Shown here in pieces: positions 3,733 to 64,000 of a DNA stretch of 64,000 nucleotides. The stretch's first letter is position 1; each line of letters starts with the position of its first letter. The stretch is from assembly GCA_935421135.1 (NCBI GenBank), contig OW285187.1, positions 11,495,929 to 11,559,928 on the forward strand, in the 5' to 3' direction. This stretch comes from Bugulina stolonifera. Its lineage: Eukaryota > Bryozoa > Gymnolaemata > Cheilostomatida > Bugulidae. The position numbers were made by a program, and so were the translations under genes. Under the pieces are notes generated by a model. The model searched no databases and was not told the DNA's origin. It saw only the letters and a list, made by a program, of their open reading frames with translations.

Positions 3733-6700
3733 TTAGCGAACTGGTATCCCTAATCTGCAGTCTGGACATTCTAGTGGAAGACCATGACCATCCCAGCACT
3801 TCCAGGGGGTAGAATCACATTTCCGGATGGCCACTGTAATTAGACCAGTTAGTGAGTACATAATATAACCATGACCATAATGAACATGCTATTCATAATG
3901 CATCGCTCTTATATCACAGATGCGTTGGTACATTGTGCTCCACAGAGTCATAGGAAATATTGGATCTAGTCATGTTACATGCACAGTTGTATGTAGTATA
4001 CCGCAGCCCTGCTTTGGCATTGAGCACTCGCTGTGCTAGGAAAGACTAAACTAAACTAATTACATTATATACATGTACATAATATTTGTGTATGGGACAT
4101 TCTGTTCAACATGTAGGCTTGATAAAACGTTGTACTATTAATAAATGTAGCTATATTGTTATAGTTCAATGATGTCATCTCCATCTGCAATGTGGAACAT
4201 TATCTTTTCAATTGGTCTGAAAAGGGAACAATGCACATTTGTTCCTTGCATGCATTCCTAGGATAAAAATGAAAATCAGTCAGACGCCGATTGTAGAAAT
4301 GGATTGGTCAAGCCAGGTCTATCTTAGCTGCCCATATATTATATAGCTGAATAATTTAGGTTAGAAAATTAGAATTAGAAGTTAGAATTTGCTCAGCAAG
4401 CGAATCAACACCAAATATCTTCAGGGTTGTAAACTATGCCTCAAAATGCCTGCAGTATCACTAGTATCCATAGGTATTCCCCAGCTCCTCTCTTATGTCA
4501 ATATATATCTCATGCGAATGACATGTATGTGGAAGGTCAAGGTGGCTTACCGAAATTCCACTTGGCGTTATAATATAGCTCGAGGGTATGGCTATGTCCT
4601 GAGGCTGTTGACGTGTCAACCGACAGGAATTTTCCAGTCTTCAAGTAGTTAATCTGTGATAGAGTGAGTTCCAAGGTGTGGATATGAGGACTTGGTGGGG
4701 TGGTCGTAGACACTCTCATCTCAAACTCAAATACCTAAGGAGCAGGCAAAATAGAGATAGAAAAGATGCATATTGTAATGGTTTCTGTGATTTGGTGCGG
4801 TCGTCCTTGGACGACTATCGACCCAGAAATGAAGTGCCTATGAGTGGTAATAGGACTTCGCATTACATGAAAGATCGAGCGGTCTCAGTAGCCCAAATAC
4901 TACCAAAGACGACCCATCTGATCTCAAGTCCGACCTTCAGACTATACAGTGAAAGAGAGTAGTTCAACCTAGTAGGCGGTTCGCAAAGCGAATGACCTAG
5001 TAAAAGGAAGAGAAAGTCCCTGTATCAAGTATAGATGTGTCTTTATTGAAAGCCAAGTGTAGACTGAGACAATGAACAGTAAAACAGTGCCCTTTATATA
5101 GTATAAGGACTTCCGGCCGACGTGACGTCGGGAAAAGACGACGTGTGGTCGTTCGGAAGTTGCGCAACAAGATGGCCGCCGGAAGCCCGACGGCCGACCC
5201 AAAATAGGTTGGGTTCTACAAAAGTTGCTTATAATGGTCCAATTCAGGTACAAAATGAATATCAATGGATTCTGAGAGGTCGGGCCTCTGTACATGGGTA
5301 TAAAAGGCATTAAAAGACTTAGAAATAATCATACAATCATATATAACAATATAAGAGTAAAGTACAAGCAGATATATACATGTATGCACGCAATAATGAG
5401 TGTCAGATGTAAGATACGACTGGGCGTACCATCACATAGCCCCCTCACACTAGGTCATGGGTGTCTCTAGTGTCAAGTTAAGAAGGGTACGGTACAGTGT
5501 AGATTCTCTGGATACTATATCCAAGTCTGCTTGTACAAGCTGGAGTTGTCGGGGGTGGTTTAGATGCTGGTTGGCTAGTTCACGAAGAGCTATTTCTCGA
5601 GCATAGAGAGGTTCCAGATGTTGGCGTAGAGTGTCTCCCACCTGTTGACGGCTGGCAAGGTAGTGAATCCGTGGCTTGAGTTCAGCAAGTTGTTGCATGA
5701 ACGACGGATCCGGAGATGCAGGACGTGTGGCATTCGGCTGAGTTAGTACAGGAGATGCAGGAGGTGGAGACTGGACGGCAGGAGAGTCTGGAGTGGCTCG
5801 GAGTAGGTCCCTGGCAGGTGTATAAGGAGAGCGGTGCGGTGAGACCTCTAGTGTGGGCCTGGACTGCAGTGGCTCGATCAGTAGAGTCGGAGAAGCTGTA
5901 CAAGAAGCTGCACATGAGACCTTGGGTGGAGAGCCTTCGTAGAGAGGGCCTGACTGAGGAGCAGGCATACTCTTCCTTGGAGCAGGCCTTGTCTTCCAAG
6001 AGGGTAGACGTCCGCGTCGGCCAGGGGGGCCGACACTTACTGCGGAGGTACTAGCAGGAGGTCGCCAGGGAGAAGGTCCAGCAGGAGTGGTAGGCGACGA
6101 GGAAGAGGAGGAGGTAGCATCAGAAGGTGCGGAGTCGGGGGTCTGTTCTGGAGATGGGCTGTGCCGTCTCTTGGGAGGTCGCTTCCTTGTGGAGGAGCTA
6201 GGCAAATAGACTGGTTTATTTGTCCCCGACTGTCCGTCCATAGTAGGACGACATGGTAGAAATGGTGGGGGATCCTTTACGCCCCACCATTCCATGAGGG
6301 CCCCATAGCTGGGCCCGTCCGTGAGGAAGAGACGTTTCCCACAGATACTGGATCTCCGACTGAAGTGATGGCCTAGAGCATCACGGCTAACTGAGCTGCG
6401 TCCGCAGCGACAGTAGAAGCGGGCAAAGTGCTGCCAAATGTGAATGTTCAGTCTCTTGAGGGTGCCGGAGAAGCCACACTTTGCACATTTGAGGTTAGGT
6501 TGACTCCTTCTAGCCAAGTCGTCTCGGGCTTGTTGAGTGAAGGTACTAATCCATGGCTTAGTGGCTCCGGAATGCTGGGACGACTCTATGGGCAGCTTGT
6601 CAGTGAGTTTGTGCAGCTTAATGGTAGCTAACTTCAGGGTAGAGGTAACAGGAGATGGAGTGGGTGGAGGCGTGCCGTCTGGCGTGAGCGTCTTCCGTAG

Positions 6701-9700
6701 AGGAGATGCATCTACAACACATAATTCATCTGATGTGTATCCTCCGCCTTCTAACTCATGCTCTTTCATGTGAGAATGTTCAGGGGAATTCTCCTCTGTC
6801 CCGACTGGTCTATGCCGAGTGGGGAGGGAGAGAGAATTCATGCCTGACAGTCCCACAGGTGTGGATTGTTCCTCTAATTCTGATTTGTTCCCTACTGGTA
6901 ACACTGAGATTTGCTTACCTTCAGCTGTGAAGACAGGCTGGTTGGAGTGATCCATACTAGAAAGAGTAGCCGTCTCGTCTGCACGAGAATGAGAAAGGAT
7001 ACGAGTGCTGTTAACTTCACCAGTGACACGAGGAGTGCAGAAGTTGCCACATGTAGGGATACATGTGCTTCGGTGAAGTGCTGAACGAGAAAGGACTACT
7101 CGTCTGTGAGCTGTCGTATTTATACTAGCCGAGGGATGAGCAATTGGCTCAATTGTAGGCAATGCCTCAGGCACATTTTCTTTGTTCGACTCGTCAAATA
7201 AGCGCGGGAACACGGCAATAGATGCCTTCGATTGCTTCTTATCCGCTTTAGGGGACTTCGAGAGTTCGGCAATCTGTATTTTCGGCTGAAACTGTTCGGC
7301 AATGCTAGATTCCGTACAAGAGCGTTTTGCTTTGTGTACTTGAACTGCTGGCAGTATAGACTGTATCTCCGTCGTTGGGATTATGTCTTGAGGTTCGGCT
7401 ACGCGACATTTCGCGTCCTCTGGATCAGGTCGGGCTGTTGAAACTTGAACATTCTTCGAGAGGTTCAGAGGTAGCTCTCTGGTTTGGTCCAGCACGGTTT
7501 GCTCCGTGTCGATCCTCAGGCCGTGGACTTGGACTGTGGTGTCTGGCAGTTCTACACACAATAAGTCGTCCGTCGGGGCATACTGAATTTTGGCGGGAAT
7601 CAATTGCTGATTAGTGTCGGGTCTGGACGTGGCCAGATCCTGTTGATCCTTCTGAGTTGAGGATAGGTCGGGGTTACCTTGTGAGGTTTGTTCCGACGGG
7701 GCGGGACATATGAGTCGTCCTTTCAGCCTTGGGGGGTGATCTGTGGTCACTTTGGATGTGTCCGGCTTTGAGTGGAGTCGTTTCTTGCCTGGTGTTGGCC
7801 TAGTGGGTTTAGGTTCATCCACTGTGACGGGTGTAGGTGACGCCGTCGGCCTGGAGTGTGATGGGCTAGTTACCCGTGGGGTTTTCTGTTTGGAGTGGCT
7901 ACTCTTGACTTTAGGCTTAGTGGGTATAGGTTCTTCCACTAGGACGGGTTCTGATGTGTCCGTCGGCCTCAGTGGACGACCATTGTGGTTTGGTCCACTC
8001 TTCTTGGGTTTGGCCGCAGTAGGAATGGGTTCATCTACTGGGACGGGTTCTGATGTATCCGTCGGCCTTTGTGGACGACCAATGTGGTTTGGTCCACTCT
8101 TCTTGGGTTTGGCCGCAGTAGGAATGGGTTCATCTACTGGGACGGGTTCTGATGTATCCGTCGGCCTTTGTGGACGACCAATGTGGGGTGGTCCACCTTC
8201 TCCTTGCTGGGCTCCAGTAGGAATGGGTTCGTCTACTGGGACGGGTCCTGGTGTGTCCGTCGGCCTCTGTGGACGACCATTGTGGTTGAGTCCACCTTCT
8301 CCTGGGTTGTTGTCTGTGTCGGCTACAGTAGGAATGGGGTCGTCTACTGGGACGGGCTCCGGTGTGACCGTTGGTCCGTCATCTGCGCCTTGACATTTCT
8401 GTAGGAGGGTATGTAGGGCTTTCCGTAGGAGGTCGGCGGGAAGCTCTTCTTGCGGTTTTGGAGGGCTGGCCTTGTCATCCTTGTTACTCCGGAAGGCCAT
8501 TCCGGCTTCCAGTGCTTCCTCCATATCATCGGGCTGTAACCATGTATAGTACCAGCGTAGGCCGTGGACTGTGAGGCAGAACTTCTCTACAGCCCATTCG
8601 TCCAAAAATGCAGGGGGTGCTCCTTCAAAGGCTGTTGCCATCAGTCTACGGATGAGAGCTGCATAGTCTCTGAGTGACGTGTGGGCTGGCTGTTCCAGTA
8701 TGGACAGCTTCCATCGGGCTTCTTTGGCAGATAGTCCATATTGCTCCCTCAGTCGGGAAAATATCTCTTCGACTGATCGGGGTCGGCCGCATTCTTGTGC
8801 GGGCCCGTGTAGGGCGGCTCTAAGCCGTATGAGGCGTGCTCTGTCATTCCAGTTGCAACGCTCTGCCATAGCGGTGAAGTCTTCTATGAAGAGTTCGACG
8901 TCCTCTTGTCCGTTGTAGCTGAGTGTTTTGAGGTCCTGCTCGGCTTGGTACATCACCTGCTGGAGCAGGTTCCTTATTTGGTCCATGTCGGTAGGGTGTC
9001 GGGTAGTGAGTAAAACTACTTTGGTTTGTTAGGCCGTGTCGGCCTAATGGTCGTACTGAGTACCGTCAATCTGTTCTGGATCCGAGGTCGGTCTTTGATT
9101 GAAGATCCGGCGTAGGTCGGGCTACATCCAGCGGAACCACGAGAATTATGGGTGCACTTTAGCGTTTGTCACCTTCTCGTATCCAAGGTTCCCGGGTCCG
9201 AGTCCTAAATCGCCGTAGAAGTATTGAAGAATGAGGTCGGTCGGTCACCCGAGGCCGAGGTCACCTTCCTTCGCTTCGTATCGTAAGAGTACGACCTTAG
9301 AATCCCACTGCTGCCACCAATGTAATGGTTTCTGTGATTTGGTGCGGTCGTCCTTGGACGACTATCGACCCAGAAATGAAGTGCCTATGAGTGGTAATAG
9401 GACTTCGCATTACATGAAAGATCGAGCGGTCTCAGTAGCCCAAATACTACCAAAGACGACCCATCTGATCTCAAGTCCGACCTTCAGACTATACAGTGAA
9501 AGAGAGTAGTTCAACCTAGTAGGCGGTTCGCAAAGCGAATGACCTAGTAAAAGGAAGAGAAAGTCCCTGTATCAAGTATAGATGTGTCTTTATTGAAAGC
9601 CAAGTGTAGACTGAGACAATGAACAGTAAAACAGTGCCCTTTATATAGTATAAGGACTTCCGGCCGACGTGACGTCGGGAAAAGACGACGTGTGGTCGTC

Positions 9701-45749: not shown

Positions 45750-48700
45750 ATGGGCAGCAGCTTCAGTAAATCAGGTGTGTTAAGATTAAGATACCTGTAT
45801 GATAAGAATACAAGCTGAGGCTGAAATAATAAATTATGATATACATACATACATGTACAGTTGTAGATAACATGGGTATTTTTATGCTGTGGATTCTAAT
45901 GCAAAGTTGTCTTTCCTGTTTTTAACTTACTAGTCAAGTTTATTTTTACAAACCTGTAGTCAAACTTTTCTTGAGAATGGATGCTGTATATTATATTTCA
46001 TGTACAGTGCATGAGTGCATATAAACATTTGATGACTTGGTACACTGTACATGTACCTCAACACTGTAGAAATGATGCCAGATGAACAGCAATATAACTG
46101 TAGTTAGGAGAACTGTAATAATAGAGGAACAACCTTAGTGTTGCTATTAGCTGTTAACTATTGCTAAGTGGCCTACAGTGTTTACATGGTTATTTCTCTC
46201 AACTTGAGAGAGAGAGAGGATAACTCTAATTAAATAAAACTTCTCAGTTAACAGTAGAATAAGACAACTCCAAAGTCCTCCTTTATATTAAATAGAAGCT
46301 TTAATCCGTCCTCATGAGAAGGTGGAGTAGAACTACTATATCTAGGTGTGTGTGTGAGGAACTGTGTCATTGCTGTATTGAGATTCATTGTCATACATCA
46401 GTACTATAATATTATGTAAATTTGTAGAGTGTTATCTTAGTATTCATCCTGTTACATGTTGTAGAGAAATATAATGTCTGGTTCAGACATTCTGGGCAGG
46501 ATCTTCCTGATGAGGATTGGACAGGGAAACTCACACCTTGGTACAGTATAGAGGAGATAGAGAGGGAGGTCAAAGGTCATGTAATTACTCACATGGTGAT
46601 AGATGGAGTTATTCCTCCTGATATTCATATGTTAGCCTCAGATCTAACTCATCTTAGAGTGAGGAACCTGAAAGACAGCTCCCATCTCTCAAGGTACAAT
46701 ACCTACATCTATGTGTGTAACATTGCAAAGCTGTACGTATTTATAATTATACTGTTAATAGGTAGATACTCCTACTTGATCTAATAGTAACATGGTCACT
46801 GAGCACTCATCAGGCTGTACATAGTCTTGTGTATTGTGTATACTGATAGACCTCCACTTAGTCACTTCCCTTGTCTATGATTCTCTGTAGTAGATTTACT
46901 AAGCAATCTACTAGAGAGGGTGGACTGTATATAGTTATATAACTTACTTATTCAATAGCATGTATTCTAATATCATGATTTACTCACATCCCAACAAATC
47001 AACAAAAAATAAGAGTAAGCCCCAACAACTTCAACATGTTGACAGAGTAGTTGATATATAAATACCATTCGTGTTCAACAAAGGGCCATTCAACAAACTC
47101 GAAACTAGTGACTTGCCAACAAGTTCAACTTTTTCACTATTTGTTTCTATAAGCCATCATTGAAATTCAACATCCCAACAACAAGTCAACATAAAATAAG
47201 AGAGGGCCCCCAACAACTTCAACATGTTGGCAGCATTGTTGATATCTAAATACAATTAATGTTCAACAAAGGGCCATTCAACAAACTAGTGACTTGCCGA
47301 CAAGTTCAACTTTTTCACTATTTGTTTCTATAAGCTATCATTGAAATTCAACATCCCAACAAGTCAACAAAAAATAACTACTGTCAACCCAACAATTTCC
47401 CACCAGCTTTCAACTTCCTTTGGGGTGTAGAAATTTTGGGCTCACTACTCTTCTACAAAATTTCGTAACTCTTCTACAACTTTTGCAACTGTTTCATAAA
47501 CTTCCAAATTTCTCCACTTCTGCACCTAACTGTACTATTGACAACTGATGGCATAACAAACACAATGAGACTCCAAATGCAAAGGATCTTCGCATTGGGA
47601 AAAATTATAAGTTTAATAAAAATAATAATAAAATATTATTATTTTAGTAATTTATTCGATGCATTGTCGAACGCCATCACATTTTGTATTATTATGCGAT
47701 CCATTACCGAACACCATTGCATTTTTTATTACTATGCGATCCATTACCAAACGCTCTCGTATAATCCATTAAATGAACATAATGCGATGTAGCCGAATGT
47801 GCCCATATTCAGTCATCAGTTTATGTAATTTAATTAGCATGAAGCCTATAACTAGAGTATTTGAGTTATATGGTTTCAAAGATCAACAAATATAATGTTA
47901 ACTGATAGAGATAGATCACATGACTGAATACCAAGTCCTATTAGTTAATAAAATTGTAAATGGAAACTGTACAGTATATAATGAACCATAGAGGTAACAC
48001 CCCTAGAGCAGGACCTTAAGAATTTTCCGCTATTAAACGCCAATTGGCCACTTGATGCCAGTTTTCCCCACGGGCGGCCATGATGCGATGGGGATTTCGT
48101 CCGTTTGTTTACATTAGTTACCATTACAATTATATATAAAACAAAATTTTTCAACGCTGTTATTTACAGATACTCTTTGTGTAAAATGTTTTAAATTTAT
48201 ATCTAAACTGTTTAGTAACATCTCTGCTTTTTGACAATAACAGTGATTTTAAGAATCTCTTTGAAGAATAGGACTTTAAAGAAAAATAAGAATGGATGTT
48301 CACTTGACCAAATAATACTAGTAACCGACTAGCGCGGCAGCGTATATCGGTAGAAAGTCTGTGAATGCGTTGATTGGTCAACCAAAATAAAACCGCATAT
48401 TATTGGGTATTAAAATCTCTAATCGCTAATTTGATAGGCTTATTGTACAGAATTATCTACACATAAAGGACTTTCGATAGCGCGTGAACAATTCTCTATT
48501 TCAAAAAATGAGCGTGGAGCTAATTGTACTAGTGGCATTCCTGGAACAATAATTATACAATCTCATATAGTTAACATTGGTGTGATTGCAAGAGTGTACT
48601 TTGGGTTTCTTTGGACTAACGGTGTGGTTAGTAGGAATACAGTACGGTTGCTGTGAGTTGGAACTGGAAAGACAATGAAATAAATTCAATTGTTATTTAT

Positions 48701-51700: not shown

Positions 51701-54700
51701 CATGTCATACATGATGGTATTGCTATTGCATACATGCAAGACTACTGTTAGATGTTTTCTTCCATACATGTATGGCCTGTGTACTGTAATTTATCCTACT
51801 GTATTATAAATATAGTTTTGACTGTCAAGTGTGTGTTATTGTAGAATATCTGGTCTTAACAAACTGGAAAAGCTGGTGATATCTGACAATGATTTCTCAT
51901 CCAATGGTGTACCAGATATATTCACATCTATGGTATCCCTCAGAGAGTTGGACATGTCTAGCTGTAGATTACCCCACCTACCAGAGAGGTCAGTAAATAT
52001 CAATACTTATAATATGAGTACACAATACTAGTAGTAATACCTTTATATACAATTATATACCATATTCATATATTTATAGTCTACATGTTCATATGTTGCA
52101 ATATTCTTGTGTATAATGTGTAGCATGTCTAAACTGAACAAACTGGAGAAGTTGGATATATCTTACAATGATGGGCACTTTCGTCATCAATGCGATGGAA
52201 GAGCAAATAATACGATGGAATAAATTTTCCAATAATGCGATGGAAATAATAATAAAAAATAATAAAAATAATATCGCATTATTGAATATTTATCGCATTT
52301 TCATCGCATGAATTTAAATCAAGGTCACGCAATGCGATGGATTTTGTTATTTTTCACACATTATTGCCGAACACCTCTTAATTATGAAAAAGGCTAGGCT
52401 GGGAATTTCCAAATGAGCTCAATAATAGAGTCAGTCAGATTACTTGAGATTACAATCAGTTAGAGAACAAACCTTTCAAATAATCCTACATAGCTCACTA
52501 CTCAGTATTTTAAAATTCTAATTGAATGTTACAGGAATATCAGCATCATGTTGATATTAACACCAAGTTCACTTGGTGTCAAAATTAATCTTTGATCTGC
52601 AAGTCGTTACATTCAGTCCATATGTAAATAGTGCACATTTGTATACAGCAGTCAAATCTAGCAGATGAATCTTCATGCAAATGGATGAATCTTCATGCAA
52701 ATGGGTGAATCTTCATGCAAATGGATGAATCTTCATGCAAATGGATGAATTTTCATTTACCTGCACAGTATTGTGCATCGACCACATTAACATCTGTAAT
52801 TCTAAATAATAATAATAAAATAATAAAAATAATATCGCATTATTGAATATTTATCGTATTTTCATCGCATTAATTTAAATAAAAGTCACGCATTAATGCG
52901 ATGAATGTTGTTATTTTTCACGTATTATTGCCGAACACCTCTTAATTATGAAAAAGGCTAGGCTGGGAATTTCCAAATGAGCTCAAATAATAAAGTCAGT
53001 CAGATTACTTTAGATTACCATTAGTTAGAGAACAAACCTTACAAATAATCCTACATAGCTCACTACTCAGCGTTTTAAAATTCTATTTGAATGTTACAAA
53101 AATATCTGCAGCTTGTTGGTTCACTTGGTATCAAAATTAATCTTTGATCTACGAGTCGTAACATTCAGTCCACATGTAAATAGTGCACATTTGTATACAG
53201 CAGTCAAATCGAGCAGCGAGCGGAAGGATCTTCATGCAAACGAATTTACCTGCACAGTATTGTGCATTGACCACATTGACATCTGTAATTCTATTGATCG
53301 ATCAGATCATTAACTAATAGGCTAAAGAGAGCACTGATACTGGTCCCAATTGCTTTCAGCATTGGTTATTGATAACAAAGACAGTTGAGTTAGTACACCG
53401 ATAACAAAGACGGGTACAATAAGTAACATGTAGACTCTTTTATTTTCATTGAATGAAGAGAACAGTAGTAGTCTGTATTTGCAGACAAGGTATGTACAAT
53501 AGCTGTAGTAGGTTACTATTGACAACTGATGGCATAACAGACACAGCAGACTGGGCGAATTTATATTAAATATTTTCTTGACTCCAAATGCGAAAGATCG
53601 TCGCATCGGGGAAAATAATAAATTTAATAAAAATAATAATAAAATATTATTATTTTAATAATTGATGCATTCCCGAATGCCATCGCATTTTTTATTATTA
53701 TGCGATCCATTACCGAACACCATCTTTTTTTATTACAATGTGATCCATTACCGAACGGGCCCGTATAATCCATTATAATCCATTAAATGAATGTAATGCG
53801 ATGTTGCGGAATGTACCCTAAATATGAATTATTATGGTAGTTGTATAAACATATATTTCGGATTATTAATATTGCATTACATTATTAATTAGTATCATAC
53901 ATGTCATACATGATGGTATTGCTATTGCATACATGCAAGACTGCTGTTAAATGTTTTCTTTCATACGTGTATGTGAACTGTAATTTATACTGCTGTATTA
54001 TAAATATACGTTTTGACTGTGAAGTGTGTGTTACTGTAGAATATCTGGTCTTACCAAACTGGAGACCCTGTGGATATCTGACAATGATTTCTCATCCAAT
54101 GGTGTACCAGATATAATCACATCTATGGTATCCCTCAGAGAGTTGAACATGCATAGCTGTAGACTAACCCACCTACCAGAAAAGTCAGTATATATCAATA
54201 CTTATAATATGAGTACACAATACTAGTTGTAATACCTTTATATAAAATAATATACCATATTCATTATATTTATAGTCTACATGTTCATATATTACAATAT
54301 TCTTGTGTATAATGTGTAGCATGTCTAAACTGAACAAACTGGAGAAGCTGGTGATATCTAACAATGATTTCTCATCCAATGGTGTACCAGATATAATCAC
54401 ATCTATGGTATCTCTCAGAGAGTTGTACATGCATAGATGTAGACTAACCCACCTACCAGAGAGGTCAGTATATTATATCAATACACCAACTTTGAAAAAA
54501 GGGCTTTTTCCAAAGTTGCTGAGCTGGTGTAGTGGGTAGCATGTTCTGTTCACTGTGCTAGGCGATTAGGTGCCGTGGAGGCCCCGGGTTCAAACCCCAG
54601 TCAGGGACTGGTATTTTCATAGATTTGAAACAAGTCTCCGACTGCTCAAAAATAAATTCCTTGCTAAAAATACATCATATATACATGTATATATAAAAAT

Positions 54701-57700
54701 GGCCAAACCCTTTAACATAATACCTTTATATAAAATAATATACCATATTCATATGTTTATAGTCTACATGTTCATATATTACAATATTCTTCTGTATAAT
54801 GTGTAGCATGTCTAAACTGAACAAACTGGAGAAGCTGTGGATATCTGGCAATGATTTCTCATCCAATGGTGTACCAGATATAATCACATCTATGGTATCT
54901 CTCAGAGAGTTGAACATGTGTAGATGTAGACTAACCCATATACCAGAGAGGTCAGTATATTATATCAATACTTATAATATGAGTACACAATACTAGTTAG
55001 TAATACCTTTATATACAATAATATACTATATTAATATATTTATAGTCTACATGTTCATATATTGCAAAATTCTTGTGTATAATGTGTAGCATGTCTAAAC
55101 TGAACAAACTGGAGAAGCTGGATATATCTGGCAATGATTTCTCATTCAATGGTGTACCAGATATATTCACATCTATGGTATCCCTCAGAGAGTTGGAGAT
55201 GAGCTGGTGTAGACTAACCCACCTTCTAGAGAGGTCAGTATATATCAATACTAATAATATGAGTATACAATACTAGTAGTAATACTTTTATATACAATAA
55301 CATACCATATTCATATATTTATAGCCTACATGTTCATATATGACAATATTCTTGTGTATAATGTTGTGTAGCATGTCTAAACTGAACCAACTGGAGAAGC
55401 TATGGATATCTGGTAATGATTTCTCATCCAATGGTGTACCAGATATAATCACATCTATGGTATCCCTTAGAGAGTTGGACATGTATGGCTGCAGACTAAC
55501 CCACCTACCAGAGAGGTCAGTATATATCAATACTTATAATATGAGTACACAATACTGGTAGTAATACCTTTATATACAATATACCATATTCATATATTTA
55601 TAGTTTACATGTTCATATATTACAATATTCTTGTGTATGATGTGTAGCATGTCTAAACTGAACAAACTGGAGAAGCTGGTGATATCTAGAAATGATTTCT
55701 CATCCAATGGTGTACCAGATATAATCACATCTATGGTACCCCTCAGAGAGTTGTACATGTCTAGCTGTAGACTAACCCATCTACCAGAGAGGTTAGTATA
55801 TATCAATGCTTATAATATGAGTACACAATACTAGTAGTAATACCTTTATATACAATAATATACCATATTCAGTATATTTATAGTCTACATCAGGGCTGGC
55901 CAAACTGTGGTCTGTGGGTCACATGTCGCCCACTTGCTCATTTTTGGTGGCCCACTTGCTCATTTTTGGTGGCCCACTTGCTCATTTTTGGTGGCCTACT
56001 TGCTCATTTTTGGTGGCCCACTTGCTCATTTTTGGTGCCCCACTTGCTCTTTTTTGGTGGCCCACTTGCTCATTTTTGGTGGCCCACTTGCTCATTTTTG
56101 GTGGCCCATTTAGCTTTGTGTAAAAATCGGCATTATCATAGTATTTTTATTTGGTGCAGCAAACGAGATGAATTTGCAACAGAAACTTTTTATCTGTGTC
56201 TCAAGCATCATAGAGCTCTGCACCATAAAACATAAATAAAAAACGTGGAAAAATAATTTGAAATGCGCGTTGGTCATTTCAGAAATTTACATAACGTACC
56301 CCTATTGGTACGTCTACAGCTACACATGCACCTACAGCGACACTTACACCTACTCCTACAGTTACATTTACACCTACAGCTAGACCTACAGCTACTCGTA
56401 CAGCTACACTTACACCTACAGCTCCACGTACGTCTACACCTACAACTACACCTACAGTCATGGCCAAAAGTCTTAGCACCCCCCATTGTTACCCAGTGCT
56501 ATCAAATCTAGGATGGATGTATTTTCAATAGACCCTACATATTCCCTAATTCATATAAACCTGCAAGTTATGCATCATTGTAAAGCTGAGAACTTGCTCT
56601 TTCTAATGTTATCACAATATTTTGCATTGAAGCCATATTTACTCAGTCCTAGGCTTTGGAAATGGACCCAAAATCGAGCACCAAATTTTGTGTTCACTTG
56701 TTGGTTTCTGTCACTATCAAGACCTGTAATGACACCAAACAATATAACTAAGTAAATAATTCATAAATTCATAACCTAATAATTGACGCAATATTTTAAG
56801 GAATTTGAAAGGTTTTAAATGGTACAAAATAATGTCTGTATTTGGGCTGTTTTCATATGCCTTTACTAATGCATTACATTTATGGCTACAATGTACATGT
56901 ACAATATTCAGTATAAATTATATTATATGGTAGGCTTAGGTATGTAATAATATAATACTTCACACTTCTAGCATAATAAAGTACACATTCCTGCTGTGCT
57001 TATAGTATAATATCATGTTCTTTCTATACTTTTGCGATAAGTGCATTTGACTGACATTGCAAATACATTTATCTATTTTATAATTCAGTAAACGACCAAA
57101 TAAGATATTTCTATTGTATGTAATGGGTGACTAGAACGCCATTCCGTCTTGCCCAGGTATGGCCAAGTAAACACTCACCTGTAGCAACCAACAACCTTTC
57201 CATCTGCAAACTCCTCTGATACACCATATTTCTAACAGCACATGGGAAACTTTGTTTGAGTAAACATATCCACAGCTCTGTGGGCTAGATCAACAATCCT
57301 GAAATCGCATGCACAGTAACACACAGCAGTAACCACATAAAGTTTTAATCCTATAGGTTTTTATCTGTGTAGTAATTATGTGCTAAAATTGATATTACTG
57401 TCATCTTATAAAGTTTACAACAAATTTTAGTTACAAATGCAGTACCAATGTACAAATGTTATTATGGTAATTAGTACCATGGTGAAACATGTACTGGGTA
57501 ATAGGTATATTAGCCAACTCAGTAACAGCATAATAATTATCATTGACAAATACATAACTTCTCATAAGATTTGGTATATATTGTAATCAAATAATTTAAT
57601 AATTATACAATACTAAAGGGAGAAAAAAGGAGGTGATGGTGGTGGCAAATAAAAAAGGGGGCAGTTGTTGGCAATTTTTCATAAATAATTACATTTTTCT

Positions 57701-59957
57701 TCCCAGTTTGGAGCAGCGGAGGAATGAGCACTGTGGTGGTTTGATTATAGGTTAGCTCTCTACATATAGGTAAAACAGCATTCAAACAGGCTGCAGCCTA
57801 CATTCATGTTTCCTTATTCTCGTAGATCAAGGAAAGAAAACTCCTAGACTAGTCAAAGTCAATATAATTTCTGTCCAAATTATCGTATAATGCATAATAT
57901 GTACATCCACTAAACACAATGCAATGTTGCATGCCATACATAGTGTATTGCATGCCCACAATACAATATAGTAGCTTGTCTATGCTATTAATTTGATACA
58001 AGTATATGCAGGTATATTGTAGTGGTCAGAGCATTTATTGGTACGACCTCAGCCTACCTGATGGACTTTGTTGCACCTGAAGTGCCTGTAGTTGTCATCG
58101 CTCAACTCACTCTCTTCCAGTTACTCTTGTACTTACCATATATTCATGCACAAACCTACATGTATTTACATATCTTCATGTTATGTATGGCTTGAGCTAT
58201 ATATACTATAATTACTAAGTGTAAATACTTGTTTTTATACCTATGTAACGGGGCCGACGTCTCAGAATTTGATGTAATTAATTTTGCACATGTTTTGTGT
58301 GTTTTTAAGCATATTTTGTTATGCCCACCCCATATAAGGTCGGGCCTCGGGCTTCTGGCCACCATCTTGTTGTGCAAGTTCCGGACGACGCTATGTCGGC
58401 TTTTTACCGGAACCTCTTTCCCGAAGTTTAAAGCTATATAAAGCGAATGTTTTATACTGTTATTGTCTCAGTTGATGCTTGGATCTCAATAAAGACACAT
58501 CTATACTACTTATACAGAGTCTTCTCTCGTAACTAAGGATAGTTCCAGCTGATAAGGTCTTTGACCTTGACTGCGCCTGAACTACCTACTAGGACTGAGC
58601 ATACTCTTTCTCAAGTATAGCATATAAGCATTGGCTCGGGACCACGTGGGTCGTCTTGGTGAGCACTATAATCACAAGTACCTGTCGATCTTTCATGTGA
58701 TACTGAAGGCCTAGCACCACTCATAGGCTCTTCACTTGTGCAAGTAGGTCGTCCTCGACCATGTCATACAAGCGCAAAACATTACAATATCATACATGTA
58801 ACTAGTGATTATAATATTACTGTATATATTTTAGTATGAGGAACCTGCAGCATCTCCAAAAGCTTCGTATATCCTTCAACCAGTTTGTAACTCTACCTGC
58901 TGTTGTGTGTGAATTGAAGAGTTTAGTAGAACTAGACATTAGTAATAACAGGTCATTAGTCTCTCTGGATCCACAGATACTACAGCTAACTCAGTTGAAG
59001 AATTTTGATATCTGGGAATGTATAGCTCTCAAGTCACCTCCATACGAGGTGTGTAAGCAAGGATTACCCGCAATCAGACAATTCTACAAGGACTTAGCCA
59101 AAGGTCAAAGTCAAAAGCTTCCGTTGGTTACCATAGCCGTTATTGGTAACACAATGGCTGGCAAGACTAGTTTAATTAAAACTCTGCAACGAAGTGATAG
59201 GAAACGAATTCTGACAAGGCGAAGCTCCGATGCTAAAGTAGATGAAGCTACGAAGGTATTCAATGTTGAAAAGGTGAAGGTCATGAACACAGAACTTAGG
59301 CTAATAGACATGGGTGGTCACAGTGTGTATCATGTGACTTACCAGCTGACACTGAAACAGAACTGTATACCTGTAATAGTTGTAAGTATGGAACAGTTCA
59401 AGGAGCTATCAGACACATCAGGTCACAGAGAAGCTGTACGGAGACTCGCATTCAACTGGATTTCTCACTTGTACCTGGCAAATCCTGACTTGGGACCTCC
59501 AAAACTAGTCTTCACCCACAAAGATAAATTTTCTCTGAATGACTTTAGTGAGCTTCGAACCACCTTTTTAAACACATCCAACAAGTTGTGTGAAGAACAC
59601 GTTAGAGAAGAGGCTCTTTCAGGAGGAAAGTTTAGCCAGATCAAGCACTTCTCCGGCACAACAACAGATGTCTTCTTACTTGAGGATATCTATGAAGTTG
59701 GTAAAGATGAAAGCGATTACTCAGAGTTTGAAAAACTCCGGTCAAACCTATTTCAAGCCAGCCAAGATTTTGTCAAGGTTTTGCCGCAGATTTGGGAAGA
59801 TGTAAAGGAAAGCGTCATGTCTTTACCAAATGTGTTCAACTCTGTGGACCAGATCTACACTACATTACTTAAATCTAAAGCGGAAGTCAAGAAAGATCAA
59901 TTGAACATCATTCTGACATACCTGCATGACTGTGGAGATGTGCTGCGAGTAGTATAG
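45750..59957 (+). CDS. Roco-type protein: myristoylation start, LRR exon array, Roc GTPase and COR start (3' end unresolved)
   Basis: Exon 1 (45750-45774) encodes MGSSFSKS, a good N-myristoylation signal. Exon 2 (46465-46693) continues in frame (KYNVWFRHSGQDLPDEDW...). A likely exon 3 is 49759-49839 (LEIKVKSGYHDAHCHNS). Then come LRR exons of 144 bp at 51845-51988, 54040-54183, 54320-54463, 54807-54950, 55090-55233, 55372-55515 and 55648-55791. The large exon from 58835 gives two to three further LRRs, a Roc GTPase with P-loop GNTMAGKTS, switch II IDMGGHSVYH and base motif THKD, then the start of a COR domain (LPQIWEDVKESV to LTYLHDCGDVLR). Roco proteins are signalling GTPases; membrane attachment through myristate is inferred. 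The frame stops at 59955-59957, but CTGCGA|gtagta just before is a plausible donor and COR is far from complete, so the gene is either truncated or continues past foreign DNA. Confidence 0.8.
46988..47372. repeat. tandem duplication, unit about 180-185 bp
   Basis: Two copies of a block containing caacttcaacatgttg, gttcaacaaagggccattca and actttttcactatttgtttc follow each other, with part of a third start. It lies in intron 2 of the Roco gene. Confidence 0.85.
47533..47812. mobile_element. non-autonomous element rich in atgcgat/atcgcat motifs
   Basis: Shares ttgacaactgatggcataac, ataataataaaatattatta and several tgcgatccattaccgaac units with 53513-53818. The right end, read inward, is GGGCACATTCGGC, matching the ends of the 52173-53818 element. 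Confidence 0.6.
47965..48125 (-). repeat. left arm of a 3-kb-spaced inverted repeat
   Basis: Reverse complement of 50966-51085 with gaps: ctctaggg, a ggcggccatgatg segment and a ccgtttgtttacattagtta segment all recur in inverted order. About 120-150 bp, imperfect. Confidence 0.6.
49360..49490 (-). repeat. tRNA-derived SINE, old copy
   Basis: Reverse and diverged: gagtttgattccgagg, ctaattgcctagcgcagtg, ctacaccagcttagca. Confidence 0.5.
50966..51085 (+). repeat. right arm of a 3-kb-spaced inverted repeat
   Basis: Contains taactaatgtaaacaaacgg, catcatggccgcc and gctctaggg in the order opposite to 47965-48125. Confidence 0.6.
52124..52172 (+). pseudogene. truncated LRR exon copy
   Basis: Starts like the other cassettes (catgtctaaactgaacaaac) and encodes SKLNKLEKLDISYND, then breaks off exactly where the 52173-53818 element begins. 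No donor follows, so it cannot be used as a normal exon. Confidence 0.8.
52173..53818. mobile_element. composite non-autonomous DNA element in the LRR array
   Basis: The left end GGGCACTTTCG and the right end (read inward GGGTACATTCCGC) are imperfect terminal inverted repeats, also seen at 47812. The interior has two direct copies of a block of about 430-450 bp (52245-52690 and 52800-53235, both with gaaaaaggctaggctggg and catttgtatacagcagtcaa) and many tcgcatt/aatgcga motifs. No ORF. The sequence on its right matches intron sequence near 51610, so no target duplication is seen: the element lies at a duplication breakpoint. Confidence 0.6.
52663..52762. repeat. 21-bp tandem repeat
   Basis: Five copies of gatgaatcttcatgcaaatgg, the last diverged. 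Confidence 0.9.
54495..54720 (+). repeat. tRNA-derived SINE, best copy
   Basis: Box A-like tggtgtagtgggtagca and box B gggttcaaacccc are spaced as in a tRNA gene, followed by a non-tRNA body (tattttcatagatttgaaac, gactgctcaaa) and an AT-rich tail. It sits in the intron between two LRR cassettes, whose intron is longer by about this length. Confidence 0.8.
55928..56112. repeat. 22-bp minisatellite
   Basis: About eight copies of ggcccacttgctcatttttg+gt. All three forward frames are open through it, as expected of a repeat whose length is not a multiple of three; these frames are not genes. Confidence 0.95.
56306..56462. repeat. degenerate (CTACAS) hexamer array
   Basis: Repeated tacacc/tacagc/tacgtc units over 150 bp on the plus strand. 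Open frames on both strands here are low-complexity. Confidence 0.85.
56513..58243. other. intron before the Roc exon, nothing recognised
   Basis: AT-rich sequence between the tandem repeats and the solo LTR. No further LRR cassette and no ORF with protein features were found. Confidence 0.4.
58244..58786 (+). repeat. solo LTR related to the 4774-9983 element
   Basis: Begins TGTAACGG and ends AAACATTACA. It shares with the reverse complement of the 663-bp LTR the ccatcttgttg block, tatataaag, the tcaataaagacacatctata polyadenylation region and the gggtcgtctt block. No gag interior is present and the second LTR is missing. Flanking bases do not show a target duplication. It is older than the element in gene A. 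Confidence 0.75.
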
Positions 59958-60995
59958 TCAGTGCAGATCTACACAGACACCCGGCCCTTTCCGCGTCGTA
60001 TTAGCCCTAGATCCAAAAACTCCCCGGGCGGACGACCACCCCACCCGTCCTCTCGCCCCTCCTCTCCCCTAAACCTCACTCTATGTGCAAAGCCCTAGAA
60101 CCTACTCCCCCCCATCGCGGGTGGGGTTTCAAAAACCTCATCGGCTGTTCCGTAGAACCCAGTCTAAAGAGCAAACCCCTCGCCCGGTCCCACGGCTCGG
60201 GCAAGGGGGCGCGCGCGTACGCGCGCGCCCCCCCGCCCCGCGAACCCCACCCGTCCTCCCTCCACCCGTCCCCGCCCCTCCCCACCCCTCCCCACCCCAA
60301 ACCCCTCCGCCTCGCCCTCCGCCTCGCGGCGGTTCTCGTTCGCGAGTCCAGCCGTGGCCCCACGCCGCCGTCCCCCCGCCCATCCCCCGCCCCTCCCCCG
60401 CTCTCCCGCCCCAACGACCCGTCGCGGCCCTCGCGGGCGGACCGTCGGCTGGAGTAGGGTGAAGCGAAGGAAAATACGGGTTAGAGTAATGATATCCGGC
60501 TATGAAAAACGTGAGCGAGGGTAATGGTACACGAATTTGTTTTAAATTTCAATACGTTTGAGAGTAATAGTACGGTGAAGCGAAGAAAAATACGGGTTGG
60601 AGTAATGATAGGGTACGCCCGTGCGGAGTGCCCGTGCAGAGTTTACGACGCTGACTATACTACTATAAGAAACTTACCGAGTGGTGGTGGTGGTGCTTCC
60701 GGATGATTTCTTCGCCGGGGACTGTTGAGACTGAACTGGTCGGGGTGACACCGCACTCGCGCGCTCCTCCGTTCGAGCGCCCCCGGACCTCCGATGAAAG
60801 ACTCGCGCCTTAACCCTCGTTTCCCCCGGACCCTCCCCTAGGGAAATCGCCCGTCCCCGTGACGAGCGGCGAGGGAAAGTGAAGGCGGTGGCTCTTTCGC
60901 GCTTCAAACCGTAGACCTCGCGAGGTGGTTCGCCGGCGACATCCTCGCTCGGAGGGGTAGACATAGATAAATGGAATAAATGGATGGCTGTCTTC

Positions 60996-61031
<36 letters not shown>

Positions 61032-61200
61032 ACATCATCATCATCCTACAAATAGACCCGCCTCCACGATGATGTCGTTGACTCCCCACCAATTTCTTCG
61101 ACCACCGCGTCCACTTTCCCCCGGGTAGCAAACTCCGATAGGGAGAGAGCGCATCGTGCGCGTGCGATGTCACCCCCCACCTACGAATGAAGACGATAGA
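59958..61200. other. abrupt GC-rich island of unknown origin
   Basis: Immediately after the Roco frame the composition switches to very GC-rich sequence with long C runs and gcgcgcgtacgcgcgcg. A block with gtgaagcgaag and tacgggtt occurs twice (about 60460 and 60573). Several long frames exist only because stop codons are rare. It resembles spacer-type DNA, but no rRNA motif could be recognised. It could be a foreign join or misassembly. Confidence 0.5.
60994..61047. repeat. (TCA)n microsatellite
   Basis: About 17 tca/tcatca units with one interruption. Confidence 0.95.
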
Positions 61201-61560
61201 AGAAATGTGAACTGATAAGGGGTGAGTATGAGTGGAAGTTGCGCTAGTACCGTCTACCCCTTTGGTTTGGCGAGGTAAATGGTTTTTAATGTATTAGCTA
61301 GTGTTTTATTGCTCGGTTTTAAGGTTACAACCGGTAAACCCTCCGTTTTGAGGACGGAGACCCCTTACAATAGAGAGTGAATGTGAAGAAAAATATACGG
61401 GTATATGTACAAGGGTTATGTTGCACTGTTCGTTTACTCTCCAATTTATCGAATGAAGTAGTCTCATCTCCGAGAAATCAGTACTAGCATTCTATAGGAC
61501 TCGTACTCACCCCGTCTTCTGCAACCTTCCGCTTACCATAGAGGTAGGTGAGTCCGGTCT

Positions 61561-61708
61561 TTAGCTGGGTGTAGCTATACGTTTGGTTTCCTCTTCTGAT
61601 AAATTTTTATCTTTTCGGATGAGCGCATCTATACTACGAGCACTCAGGGCCATGTAAGCGCTATCCGTGTCCATTTCTACGTACTCAAACTCCTCTCTGC
61701 TGACGAAT
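61561..61708 (-). pseudogene. family-B DNA polymerase fragment (Polinton/Maverick-like)
   Basis: Read on the minus strand, an exon after a tttcacag acceptor encodes FEYVEMDTDSAYMALSARS, containing the DTDS motif of family-B polymerase palm domains, and stops at 61561-61563. The surrounding residues resemble protein-primed polymerases of large DNA transposons. After the position where the stop occurs, another frame stays open (YTQLKTGLTYLYGKRKVAEDG), so a frameshift is likely. No other polymerase motifs, integrase or capsid genes are visible nearby, so this is a fragment. Confidence 0.6.
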
Positions 61709-61789
61709 CTGTGAAAATAAAATGGACGGGTTGGAGGGTGCTGACACCGAAGAATAAATAGAGAAGGATTTGATAAAATCTTTGTGTAG

Positions 61790-63440
61790 TCTAGTTCTAC
61801 TCATCTATCCATATGTGTACACATGTTAAAATACCTTTATATAATAGTTCAAACACAATTGAATGAATAAAAGACACATATCTAAAGGAGTATGTCATAG
61901 CTATTATTAGCAAGAAAAGACTGTGTGCATGTGTTAAGTCAGCATACATAATACATTAAATAAGCTTTTCACAATAGTAGCGATAGAATAAATAAAAGGT
62001 TGTATGCATGTGTTAAGTCAGCATTATGTAATTCATTAAATAAACTTTTCACAATAGTAGCAATAGAATATATAAAAGGTTGTATGCATGTGTTAAGTCA
62101 GCATTATGTAATACATTAAATAAACTTTTTACAATACTAGCAATAGAATGAATAAATGTGTACACATGGTAAAATACCATTATATAATAATTTAAACACA
62201 ATTGAATGAATAAAACGCACATATATGTAAAGGAGTATGGCATACCTATTATTAGCAAGAAAAGGCTGTGTGCATGTGTTAAGTCAGCATATATAATACA
62301 TTAAATAAACTTTTCACAAAGTCAGCATAATATATAATACATTAAATAAACTTTTCACAATAGTAGCAATAGAATAAATAAAAGGTTGTGTGCATGTGTT
62401 AAGTCAGCATTATGTAATTCATTAAATAAACTTTTCACAATAGTAGCAATAGAATAAATAAAAGATTGTGTACACATGTTAAAATACCATTATATAATAA
62501 TTTAAACACAATTGAATGAATAAAAGGCACATATGTAAAGGAGTATGACATACCTATTATTAGCAAGAAAAGGCTGTGTGCATGTGTTAAGTCAGCATAT
62601 ATAATACATTAAATAAACTTTTCACAAAGTCAGCATAAGATATAATACATTAAATAAACTTTTCACAATAGTAGCAATAGAATAAATAAAGGGTTGTATG
62701 CATGTGTTAAGTCAGCATTATGTAATTCATTAAATAAACTTTTCACAATAGTAGCTATAGAATAAATAAAAGAGTGTGTACACATGTTAAAATACCTTTA
62801 TATAATAATTTAAACACAATTGAAAGAATAGGCTGTGTGCATGTGTTAAGTCAGCATATATAATAGATTAAATAAGCTTTTCACACAAAATACCTTTATA
62901 TAATAATTTAAACACAGTTGAAAGAATAGGCTGTGTGCATGTGTTAAGTCAGCATATATAATAGATTAAATAAGCTTTTCACAATAGTAGCAATTGAATA
63001 AATAAAAGGTTGTGTGCATGTGTTAAGTCAGCATTATGTAATTCATTAAATAAACTTTTCACAATAGTAGCAATAGAATAAATAAAAGATTGTGTACACA
63101 TGTTGAAATACCTTTATATAATAGATTAAATAAGCTTTTCACATACCTATTATTAGCAAGAAAAGGCTGTGTGCATGTGTTAAGTCAGCATATATAATAG
63201 ATTAAATAAGCTTTTCACAATAGTAGCAATAGAATAAATAAAAGGTTGTGTGCATGTGTTAAGTCAGCATTATGTAATTCATTAAATAAACTTTTCACAA
63301 TAGTAGCAATAGAATAAATAAAAGATTGTGTACACATGTTAAAATACCTTTATATAATAATTTAAACACAATTGAAAGAATAGGCTGTGTGCATGTGTTA
63401 AGTCAGCATATATAATAGATTAAATAAGCTTTTCAATAGT
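61790..63440. repeat. complex AT-rich satellite, unit about 75-80 bp with higher-order pattern
   Basis: Modules repeated many times in changing order: gcatgtgttaagtcagcat, cattaaataaacttttcaca, atagtagcaatagaataaat, and a longer block with acacatgttaaaatacc and tataataatttaaacacaat. Some arrays alternate short and long modules, giving a higher-order unit of about 290-310 bp. Confidence 0.9.
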
Positions 63441-63751
63441 AGGTAGGTGTCACTGTTTTAGTCTCCCTATAATAAATATAAAGTAGCAGGGTGTAAGTAA
63501 TTTTTTAGCTTGATAGCATTATATACAATAAACACTTCACAATTGCTGCCAATTACCCTATTTAGCACTAACCTTATGTTCTACTTGTTGAAATCTCTGA
63601 TCAGGTGCTGACTAGTAGGTAGCTGTCTCTGTTTTAGTCTCACTCTGTTGACTAGAGGCTGATTGTACATACTGCTAGAGTGAGAAACTCATACCTTAAA
63701 TAGTAGTATTCAGTAGGCGGAGTCTAACCATTTCCCCACCCTTTGCAATAC

Positions 63752-64000
63752 CACCCCGATGCGTCCCGATGTGAATCCGAAGCCTCCCGATGCACCCCGA
63801 TGCGAATCCGAAGCCTCCCGATGCACCCCGATGTGAATCCGAAGCCTCCCGATGCACCCCGATGTGAATCCGAAGCCTCCCGATGCACCCCGATGCGAAT
63901 CCGAAGCCTCCCGATGCACCCCGATGTGAATCCGAAGCATCCCGATGCACCCCGATGTGAATCCGAAGCCTCCCGATGCACCCCGATGCGAATCCGAAGC
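63752..64000. repeat. 31-bp minisatellite running off the window
   Basis: Eight copies of gaagcctcccgatgcaccc+cgatgYgaatcc, very uniform apart from gatgc/gatgt. All three minus-strand frames are open because 31 is not a multiple of 3; they are not genes. Confidence 0.95.

Follow-up and report, generated by a model that had tools for sequence, protein, structure and literature searches.

An LRR exon array in a predicted Roc-COR and caspase gene

We analyzed a 64,000-nucleotide stretch of the bryozoan Bugulina stolonifera (GenBank assembly GCA_935421135.1, contig OW285187.1, abbreviated C1; C1:11495929-11559928, hereafter the window), one part of the 235-Mb genome searched, which carries an array of exons encoding leucine-rich repeats (LRRs). 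Seven of these exons are complete 144-bp units (hereafter, cassettes), each encoding two LRRs and having phase-2 borders with an AG acceptor and a GT donor, and they lie where an earlier reading of the letters alone (the sequence-only reading) had placed them. As predicted from sequence, the gene order is N-cap – LRR cassettes – LRR-Roc-COR – caspase, with the following parts (window positions unless another source is named):

46465..46693, + strand: N-cap exon (tblastn with the N-terminal exons of the C9 gene, E 6e-22; borders from sequence)
51845..51988, + strand: LRR cassette 1 (144 bp, phase 2, two LRRs)
52124..52172, + strand: cassette 2, truncated (16 codons, then the insertion)
52173..53817 (right limit approximate), no strand: insertion in the array, ~1.6 kb, with internal direct repeats ~560 bp apart
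54040..54183, + strand: LRR cassette 3
54320..54463, + strand: LRR cassette 4
54807..54950, + strand: LRR cassette 5
55090..55233, + strand: LRR cassette 6
55372..55515, + strand: LRR cassette 7
55648..55791, + strand: LRR cassette 8 (matched by tblastn, missed by the strict exon pattern)
58835..59947, + strand: LRR-Roc-COR exon, 5' portion, with the terminal LRRs, the Roc GTPase and the beginning of COR
59948..64000, on to ~L040:4345 beyond the window, no strand: inserted element splitting COR, left part (inverted repeats)
L040:4344-5249: rest of COR, beyond the window (89% identical)
L040:5661-5912: linker exon, 3' of the COR remainder
L040:6130-6285 and 6544-6768, then L041: caspase exons (Pfam E 3e-11 and 7e-12)

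Adjacent intact cassettes are spaced 132-343 bp apart, with 2,051 bp across truncated cassette 2 and the insertion. Sequence from ~53819 onward repeats the region upstream of cassette 1 (91% over 557 bp), marking a duplicated segment of the array. N-cap matches were found by tblastn in 11 of 21 sequence sources (the window, L022, L024, L026, L031-L034 and L036-L038) and in none of the other ten. The LRR-Roc-COR part in the window aligns at 91% identity with residues 1-368 of an intact paralogous exon at C1:11.81 Mb (666 aa); Roc is called by Pfam above its cut-off in both (6.6e-7 in the window exon, 7.5e-8 in the intact paralogue), and the GTPase motif columns GxxxxGKT and DxGG are invariant across 25 aligned sequences. 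Further caspase pieces of the window's gene were read by eye in L041. When joined, its caspase pieces match CED-3 (E 8e-21), with the SHG and QACSGG motifs aligned, and match caspase-1 over residues 7-225 of 227; Pfam C14 was found in four of four exon pieces from two genes, the residue-level motif check applying to the window's gene.

The seven window cassettes, joined, match the LRR structures LIC11098 (6e-46) and SHOC-2 (4e-37). A structural model of the window open reading frame (ORF) 58836-59954, built with 24 homologues, reached a predicted local distance difference test score (pLDDT) of 83 and has three LRR strands preceding Roc; a strand at residues 9-11 lines up with cassette codons 9-11 by tblastn. 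Foldseek ranks 1-18 for this LRR-Roc part were LRRK1, LRRK2 and archaeal Roco2 (E 2e-14 to 2e-8), with template modelling (TM) scores by query of 0.43-0.64 and root-mean-square deviations of 5-10 Å. A model of one 47-residue cassette alone (pLDDT 52, two helices, no LRR) was not used.

The element that splits COR is ~8.4 kb long and has a GC-rich end, internal repeats and terminal inverted repeats. The insertion looks recent, to judge from the 99.9% identity of these repeats over 1,815 bp and from the flanking 6 bp, which by eye look like a target duplication. Ribosomal DNA was rejected as the identity of the GC-rich block at 60-62 kb, which is part of this element, and Rfam gave no match at gathering score within the window. 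Truncated cassette 2 could be skipped without a change of frame. Just 3' of the array are tandem 22-bp repeats and a short-period (6/12-bp) repeat (55903-56144 and 56301-56468). A GC-rich stretch elsewhere in the window holds a 1,178-codon open frame (5450-8986, - strand), the start of which looks gag-like and which has no Pfam match at 0.01.

Variation and selection at the concave codons

The window cassettes vary at codons 11 (V/W/D), 14 (G/D/N/R), 36 (D/N/Y/E), 38 (S/H/C/Y) and 39 (S/R/W/G), which are the five highest-entropy codons of 47. The residues are those that the sequence-only reading had listed, except that the position it described as following I-S has to be read as codon 14, codon 13 (S) being invariant in the window. 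All five fall among the ten concave x positions of two LxxLxLxx strands, as that reading had supposed; the chance of the top five all landing there is 1.6e-4, and mean entropy is higher at the 10 concave than at the 37 other codons (permutation p = 3e-4). The remaining five concave codons show little or no variation in the window. Placement of the variable codons on the concave face is supported by the LRR consensus and register together with the predicted structure of the gene's last LRRs, rather than by a model of the array.

We measured selection on a cassette sample drawn from the window, six other C1 clusters, and C9, C2 and C5, which gave 100 matches, 94 of them usable. The six excluded were the truncated window cassette, three that fit 147 bp, one with a stop and lacking an acceptor, and one lacking a donor. 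The 94 form groups A (n=36, window included), B (n=42), C (n=13) and D (n=3); merging duplicates reduced A to 35, B to 39 and C to 11, and group C was used for entropy only and D left out. Nothing in L045 (C11) fitted the strict exon pattern for cassettes, though the genome search gave matches there, and that subfamily was left out of the analysis. Nonsynonymous (dN) and synonymous (dS) differences per site were estimated by the Nei-Gojobori method for every pairing of unique cassettes; flanking introns served as the neutral control, and bootstraps were taken over cassettes. The ten concave codons were set a priori from the LRR consensus, and the selection conclusions rest on them; the five hypervariable codons were chosen after the data were seen. 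The estimates were:

Window cassettes, 21 pairs: dN concave 0.341, dS 0.156, introns 0.138, dN other codons 0.052
Subfamily A, 35 unique, 595 pairs (33 of which fall in no intron bin): dN concave 0.380, dS 0.225, introns 0.169, dN other 0.075
Subfamily B, 39 unique, 741 pairs: dN concave 0.258, dS 0.079, introns 0.069, dN other 0.041
Subfamily 3 (L044, 147-bp exons, 10 unique of 12): dN concave 0.235, dS 0.139, introns 0.072, dN other 0.033

The dN/dS ratio (omega) at the ten concave codons, a comparison that the sequence-only reading had called for, was 1.69 in A (bootstrap 1.37-2.13) and 3.24 in B (2.40-4.39), values that are not near or below 1; at other codons it was 0.33 and 0.51, respectively. 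The ratio of concave dN to intron divergence was 2.2 in A, 3.7 in B and 3.3 in subfamily 3. We also applied a self-written grid codon model to iqtree trees, a test that is approximate given paralogous repeats and recombination; the pairwise estimate is tree-free. In this model two classes outdid one by 44.6 (A) and 44.8 (B) log units, and the concave class had an omega of 2.0 (A) and 2.8 (B), better than an omega of 1 by 17.5 and 37.8 log units. At posterior >0.9, positive selection was assigned to codons 11, 14, 26, 36, 38, 39 and 41 in A and to codons 13, 14, 16, 18, 26, 31, 39 and 41 in B, and purifying selection to concave codons 8, 9, 13, 33 and 34 in A and 8, 11 and 33 in B. Over the whole cassette, 34 of 47 codons in A and 33 of 47 in B were under purifying selection. 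The ten concave codons thus comprise five positive and five purifying in A, and three positive in B. As estimated from these sequences, selection is directed at a subset of the concave codons that partly differs between subfamilies, plus some other codons, so that the putative diversifying recognition surface of the sequence-only reading is supported for the concave class and has to be narrowed in that not all ten codons participate and extended in that some selected codons lie outside.

Distinct five-residue surface combinations numbered 33 in 36 cassettes (A), 37 in 42 (B) and only 7 in 13 (C). The nearest relative of a cassette lay in the same array for 11 of 36 cassettes in A, 23 of 42 in B and 9 of 13 in C (expected 4.8, 11.9 and 3.8). 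Three successive cassettes recur in L031 with identical surface residues, a pattern that unequal crossing-over would produce.

The gene family in the genome

Genome searches scored the best candidates only, so that the family counts that follow are lower bounds, and they include fragments. The Roc-COR exon gave at least 68 genome matches (66 of 109 candidates scored), which a script merged to ~60 loci, several of which are fragments or carry stops; cassette presence was checked at some of them. Caspase gave at least 139 matches (150 of 192 candidates scored). A caspase exon lies within 8 kb downstream on the same strand at 56 of the 60 Roc-COR loci, compared with none upstream on the same strand and one downstream on the opposite strand, and the Roc-COR loci account for 85 of the 139 caspase matches. 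The paralogue at C9:10.782-10.794 Mb has a start exon, an N-cap exon, 18 cassettes and Roc-COR, together 1,622 aa in one frame with no stop.

Cassette searches gave at least 150 genome matches for the window type (best 150 of 349 candidates) and at least 129 for subfamily 3 (150 of 241 candidates scored), 97 of the latter in C9:8.65-8.96 Mb; the two match lists overlap. At C9:8816697-8856873 we observed ~40 kb of 147-bp LRR cassettes with ~660-bp spacing upstream of Roc-COR matches at C9:8877448, an array that would encode >100 LRRs if it is one gene. Among other receptor domains, NACHT had one match in the genome (12 of 12 candidates scored), which is not at a Roc-COR locus, and TIR exons had 13 (20 of 20 candidates scored). 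According to a Toll survey (PMC8609888), no TLR was found in the transcriptome of Bugula neritina, against six in Membranipora.

The analysis adds to the sequence-only reading the Roc-COR and caspase surroundings of the array, the size of the family and the disruption of the window copy.

A candidate cytosolic receptor and its relatives

We propose, with fair though far from full confidence, that the array encodes the recognition part at one of ~60 receptor-like loci, and that the encoded protein acts as a cytosolic sensor through Roc-COR and caspase. Cassettes would multiply by single-cassette and block duplication, and part of the concave surface codons would diversify in the germline under positive selection. 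From the identity of the domains, and supposing that the exons are spliced as drawn, we infer that a ligand (a microbial product, possibly non-self tissue) would bind the concave LRR surface in the cytosol, that the Roc-COR module would then change its GTP or dimer state, and that the C-terminal caspases would be brought together and activated, leading to cell death or an inflammatory-type response and hence to a role in immunity.

Several observations weigh against this proposal. In the codon model codon 11 is purifying and codon 36 lacks support in subfamily B, and selected codons lie outside the concave set (26 and 41 in A and B; 16, 18 and 31 in B); codon 26 (I/F/V) is probably not on the concave face, and the top-entropy codon of subfamily C (11 unique) is 41. 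COR in the intact paralogue is below the Pfam cut-off, with a weak COR-A match (E 0.006, 17 bits, cut-off 35.3); COR-A is listed by Pfam in the relatives P0034 and P0044 and in the distant P0040-P0042. Four of the 60 Roc-COR loci have no caspase exon, and 54 of the 139 caspase matches are not accounted for by Roc-COR loci. The window copy itself, interrupted twice, appears from its sequence to be probably non-functional in this haplotype.

The disrupted window copy, and the tolerance of surface positions to change, would also suit neutral drift under relaxed constraint or the decay of dying tandem repeats. We regard this as the least credible account because concave dN exceeds dS and intron divergence (the latter 2.2-3.7-fold) when relaxation could only equalise them, and the other codons are still constrained. 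A targeted mutation or conversion process that writes diversity into surface codons is very improbable. It would explain two observations: the five hypervariable codons have elevated synonymous differences per site (A, 0.47 vs 0.18; B, 0.21 vs 0.07), and codon pairs often show two or three base differences. Serine, with its two codon sets, and amino acid changes that take two steps would be expected to produce such a synonymous rise, however, and the rate at adjoining codons is not raised (0.16 vs 0.18 in A, 0.05 vs 0.07 in B), which leaves a regional hypermutation hotspot unsupported.

Two further rivals assign the surface another use. The architecture could serve colony allorecognition (fusion/rejection) instead of pathogen sensing, with diversity spread across many loci and surface combinations, and diversifying selection is compatible with either use; Bugulina is colonial (PMC10213821). 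We nonetheless think this use quite unlikely, given that no signal peptide was evident in the N-terminal exons, judged by eye with no predictor run, a poor fit to contact allorecognition. Dozens of loci are also more than the allorecognition systems of other animals are known to use. The other rival is a non-immune cell-death regulator of the ROCO type, with LRR diversity that follows a large set of host partner proteins, for example in polypide regression. Non-immune functions of ROCO proteins and of caspases occur in animals, and the caspase here is conserved; we judge such a role unlikely, since concave positive selection in three subfamilies and ~60 loci are more usual in conflict than in housekeeping roles.

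Each cassette is a phase-2 exon whose gain or loss keeps the frame, so that within the proposed cytosolic sensor family cells might express different cassette subsets or orders by alternative splicing or somatic rearrangement. We consider this extension unlikely; if true, it would give a colonial invertebrate a cell-diverse, anticipatory repertoire of cytosolic LRR receptors wired to caspase. Bryozoan immunity is little described, and the diversification of recognition in colonial invertebrates becomes testable with the public data of Bugulina stolonifera.

A first protein search returned at least 41 homologues (7,994 candidates scored), 30 of them from the source jgi; these 30 are Roc-COR homologues, among P0002-P0035, and are 45-53% identical. 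Watersipora P0036, which has a caspase, also came from this search. A second search (7,987 scored) added at least three proteins of Watersipora and Bugula neritina, each of which has a caspase. The bryozoan relatives (Watersipora subatra P0036, P0043 and P0045, and Bugula neritina P0044; MFHAS1 homologue or uncharacterised) cover 94-100% of the Roc-COR queries and likewise carry a Pfam caspase domain, and P0043 has, by eye, a 47-residue double LRR with a CxL motif like the cassettes described here. They differ in being only 30-38% identical, in having no Roc call among the listed Pfam domains (P0036 and P0045), in almost lacking the LRR part (P0044) or in additional fibronectin-type domains (P0043).

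LRRKs end in a kinase, NLR receptors couple an LRR sensor on a switch to a death effector, and lamprey VLRs carry their variability on concave LRR strands. The bryozoan protein has the LRR-Roc fold in common with LRRK1, LRRK2 and archaeal Roco2 (Foldseek), but the 3' part of the gene is a caspase, unlike the LRRK kinase. Compared with NLRs, its switch is Roc-COR rather than NACHT (NB-ARC was not searched for), which suggests that Roc-COR may stand in for the switch of NLRs in a large, diversified family of receptors. Compared with lamprey VLRs, there is no evidence of somatic assembly in the one assembly examined, for which no reads were used. LRR genes of Tetrahymena likewise have constant-length phase-2 LRR exon arrays that expand by duplication, but the exons are 90 bp, and Roc-COR-caspase and concave-site selection were not seen in the accessible text (PMC6564038).

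The closest described system that we found is the LRR-ROCO genes of brown algae (Teng et al. 2024, PMC11378527; Zambounis et al. 2012 as cited there), compared here on the accessible text of the former. Both have tandem phase-2 LRR exons before Roc-COR, an expanded family and concave positive selection. The algal selected LRR sites 14, 16, 18 and 19, on the concave side (PMC11378527), correspond in our alignment to x3, x5, x7 and x8 of LxxLxLxxN, and the bryozoan variable positions are x5 and x8 of the first LRR and x5, x7 and x8 of the second. The algal exon is 72 bp and encodes one LRR, whereas the bryozoan exon is 144 bp (147 bp in subfamily 3) and encodes two; LRR-ROC-COR is said to be the sole domain structure in the algae (PMC11378527), whereas the bryozoan gene adds caspase; and gene numbers are 9-47 per algal species (PMC11378527), against ~60 bryozoan loci counted by similarity with fragments included. 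Alternative splicing of LRR exons has been reported for the algal ROCOs (PMC11378527). Because the organisms are very distant, the two arrays are probably of independent origin.

We found no report of bryozoan LRR-Roc-COR-caspase receptors in the literature covered, with subscription papers and preprints mostly outside that coverage. Judged by its exons and domains, the bryozoan family appears to be of the exon-array LRR-ROCO kind, new in being from an animal and in having caspase in the same gene. If the cytosolic sensor reading is true, the family would give animals a counterpart to the exon-array receptors of brown algae, here with a death enzyme encoded by the same gene, resembling plant and algal immune receptors in its fast-changing, selected surface at one end and, in the bryozoan, carrying a cell-death enzyme at the other.

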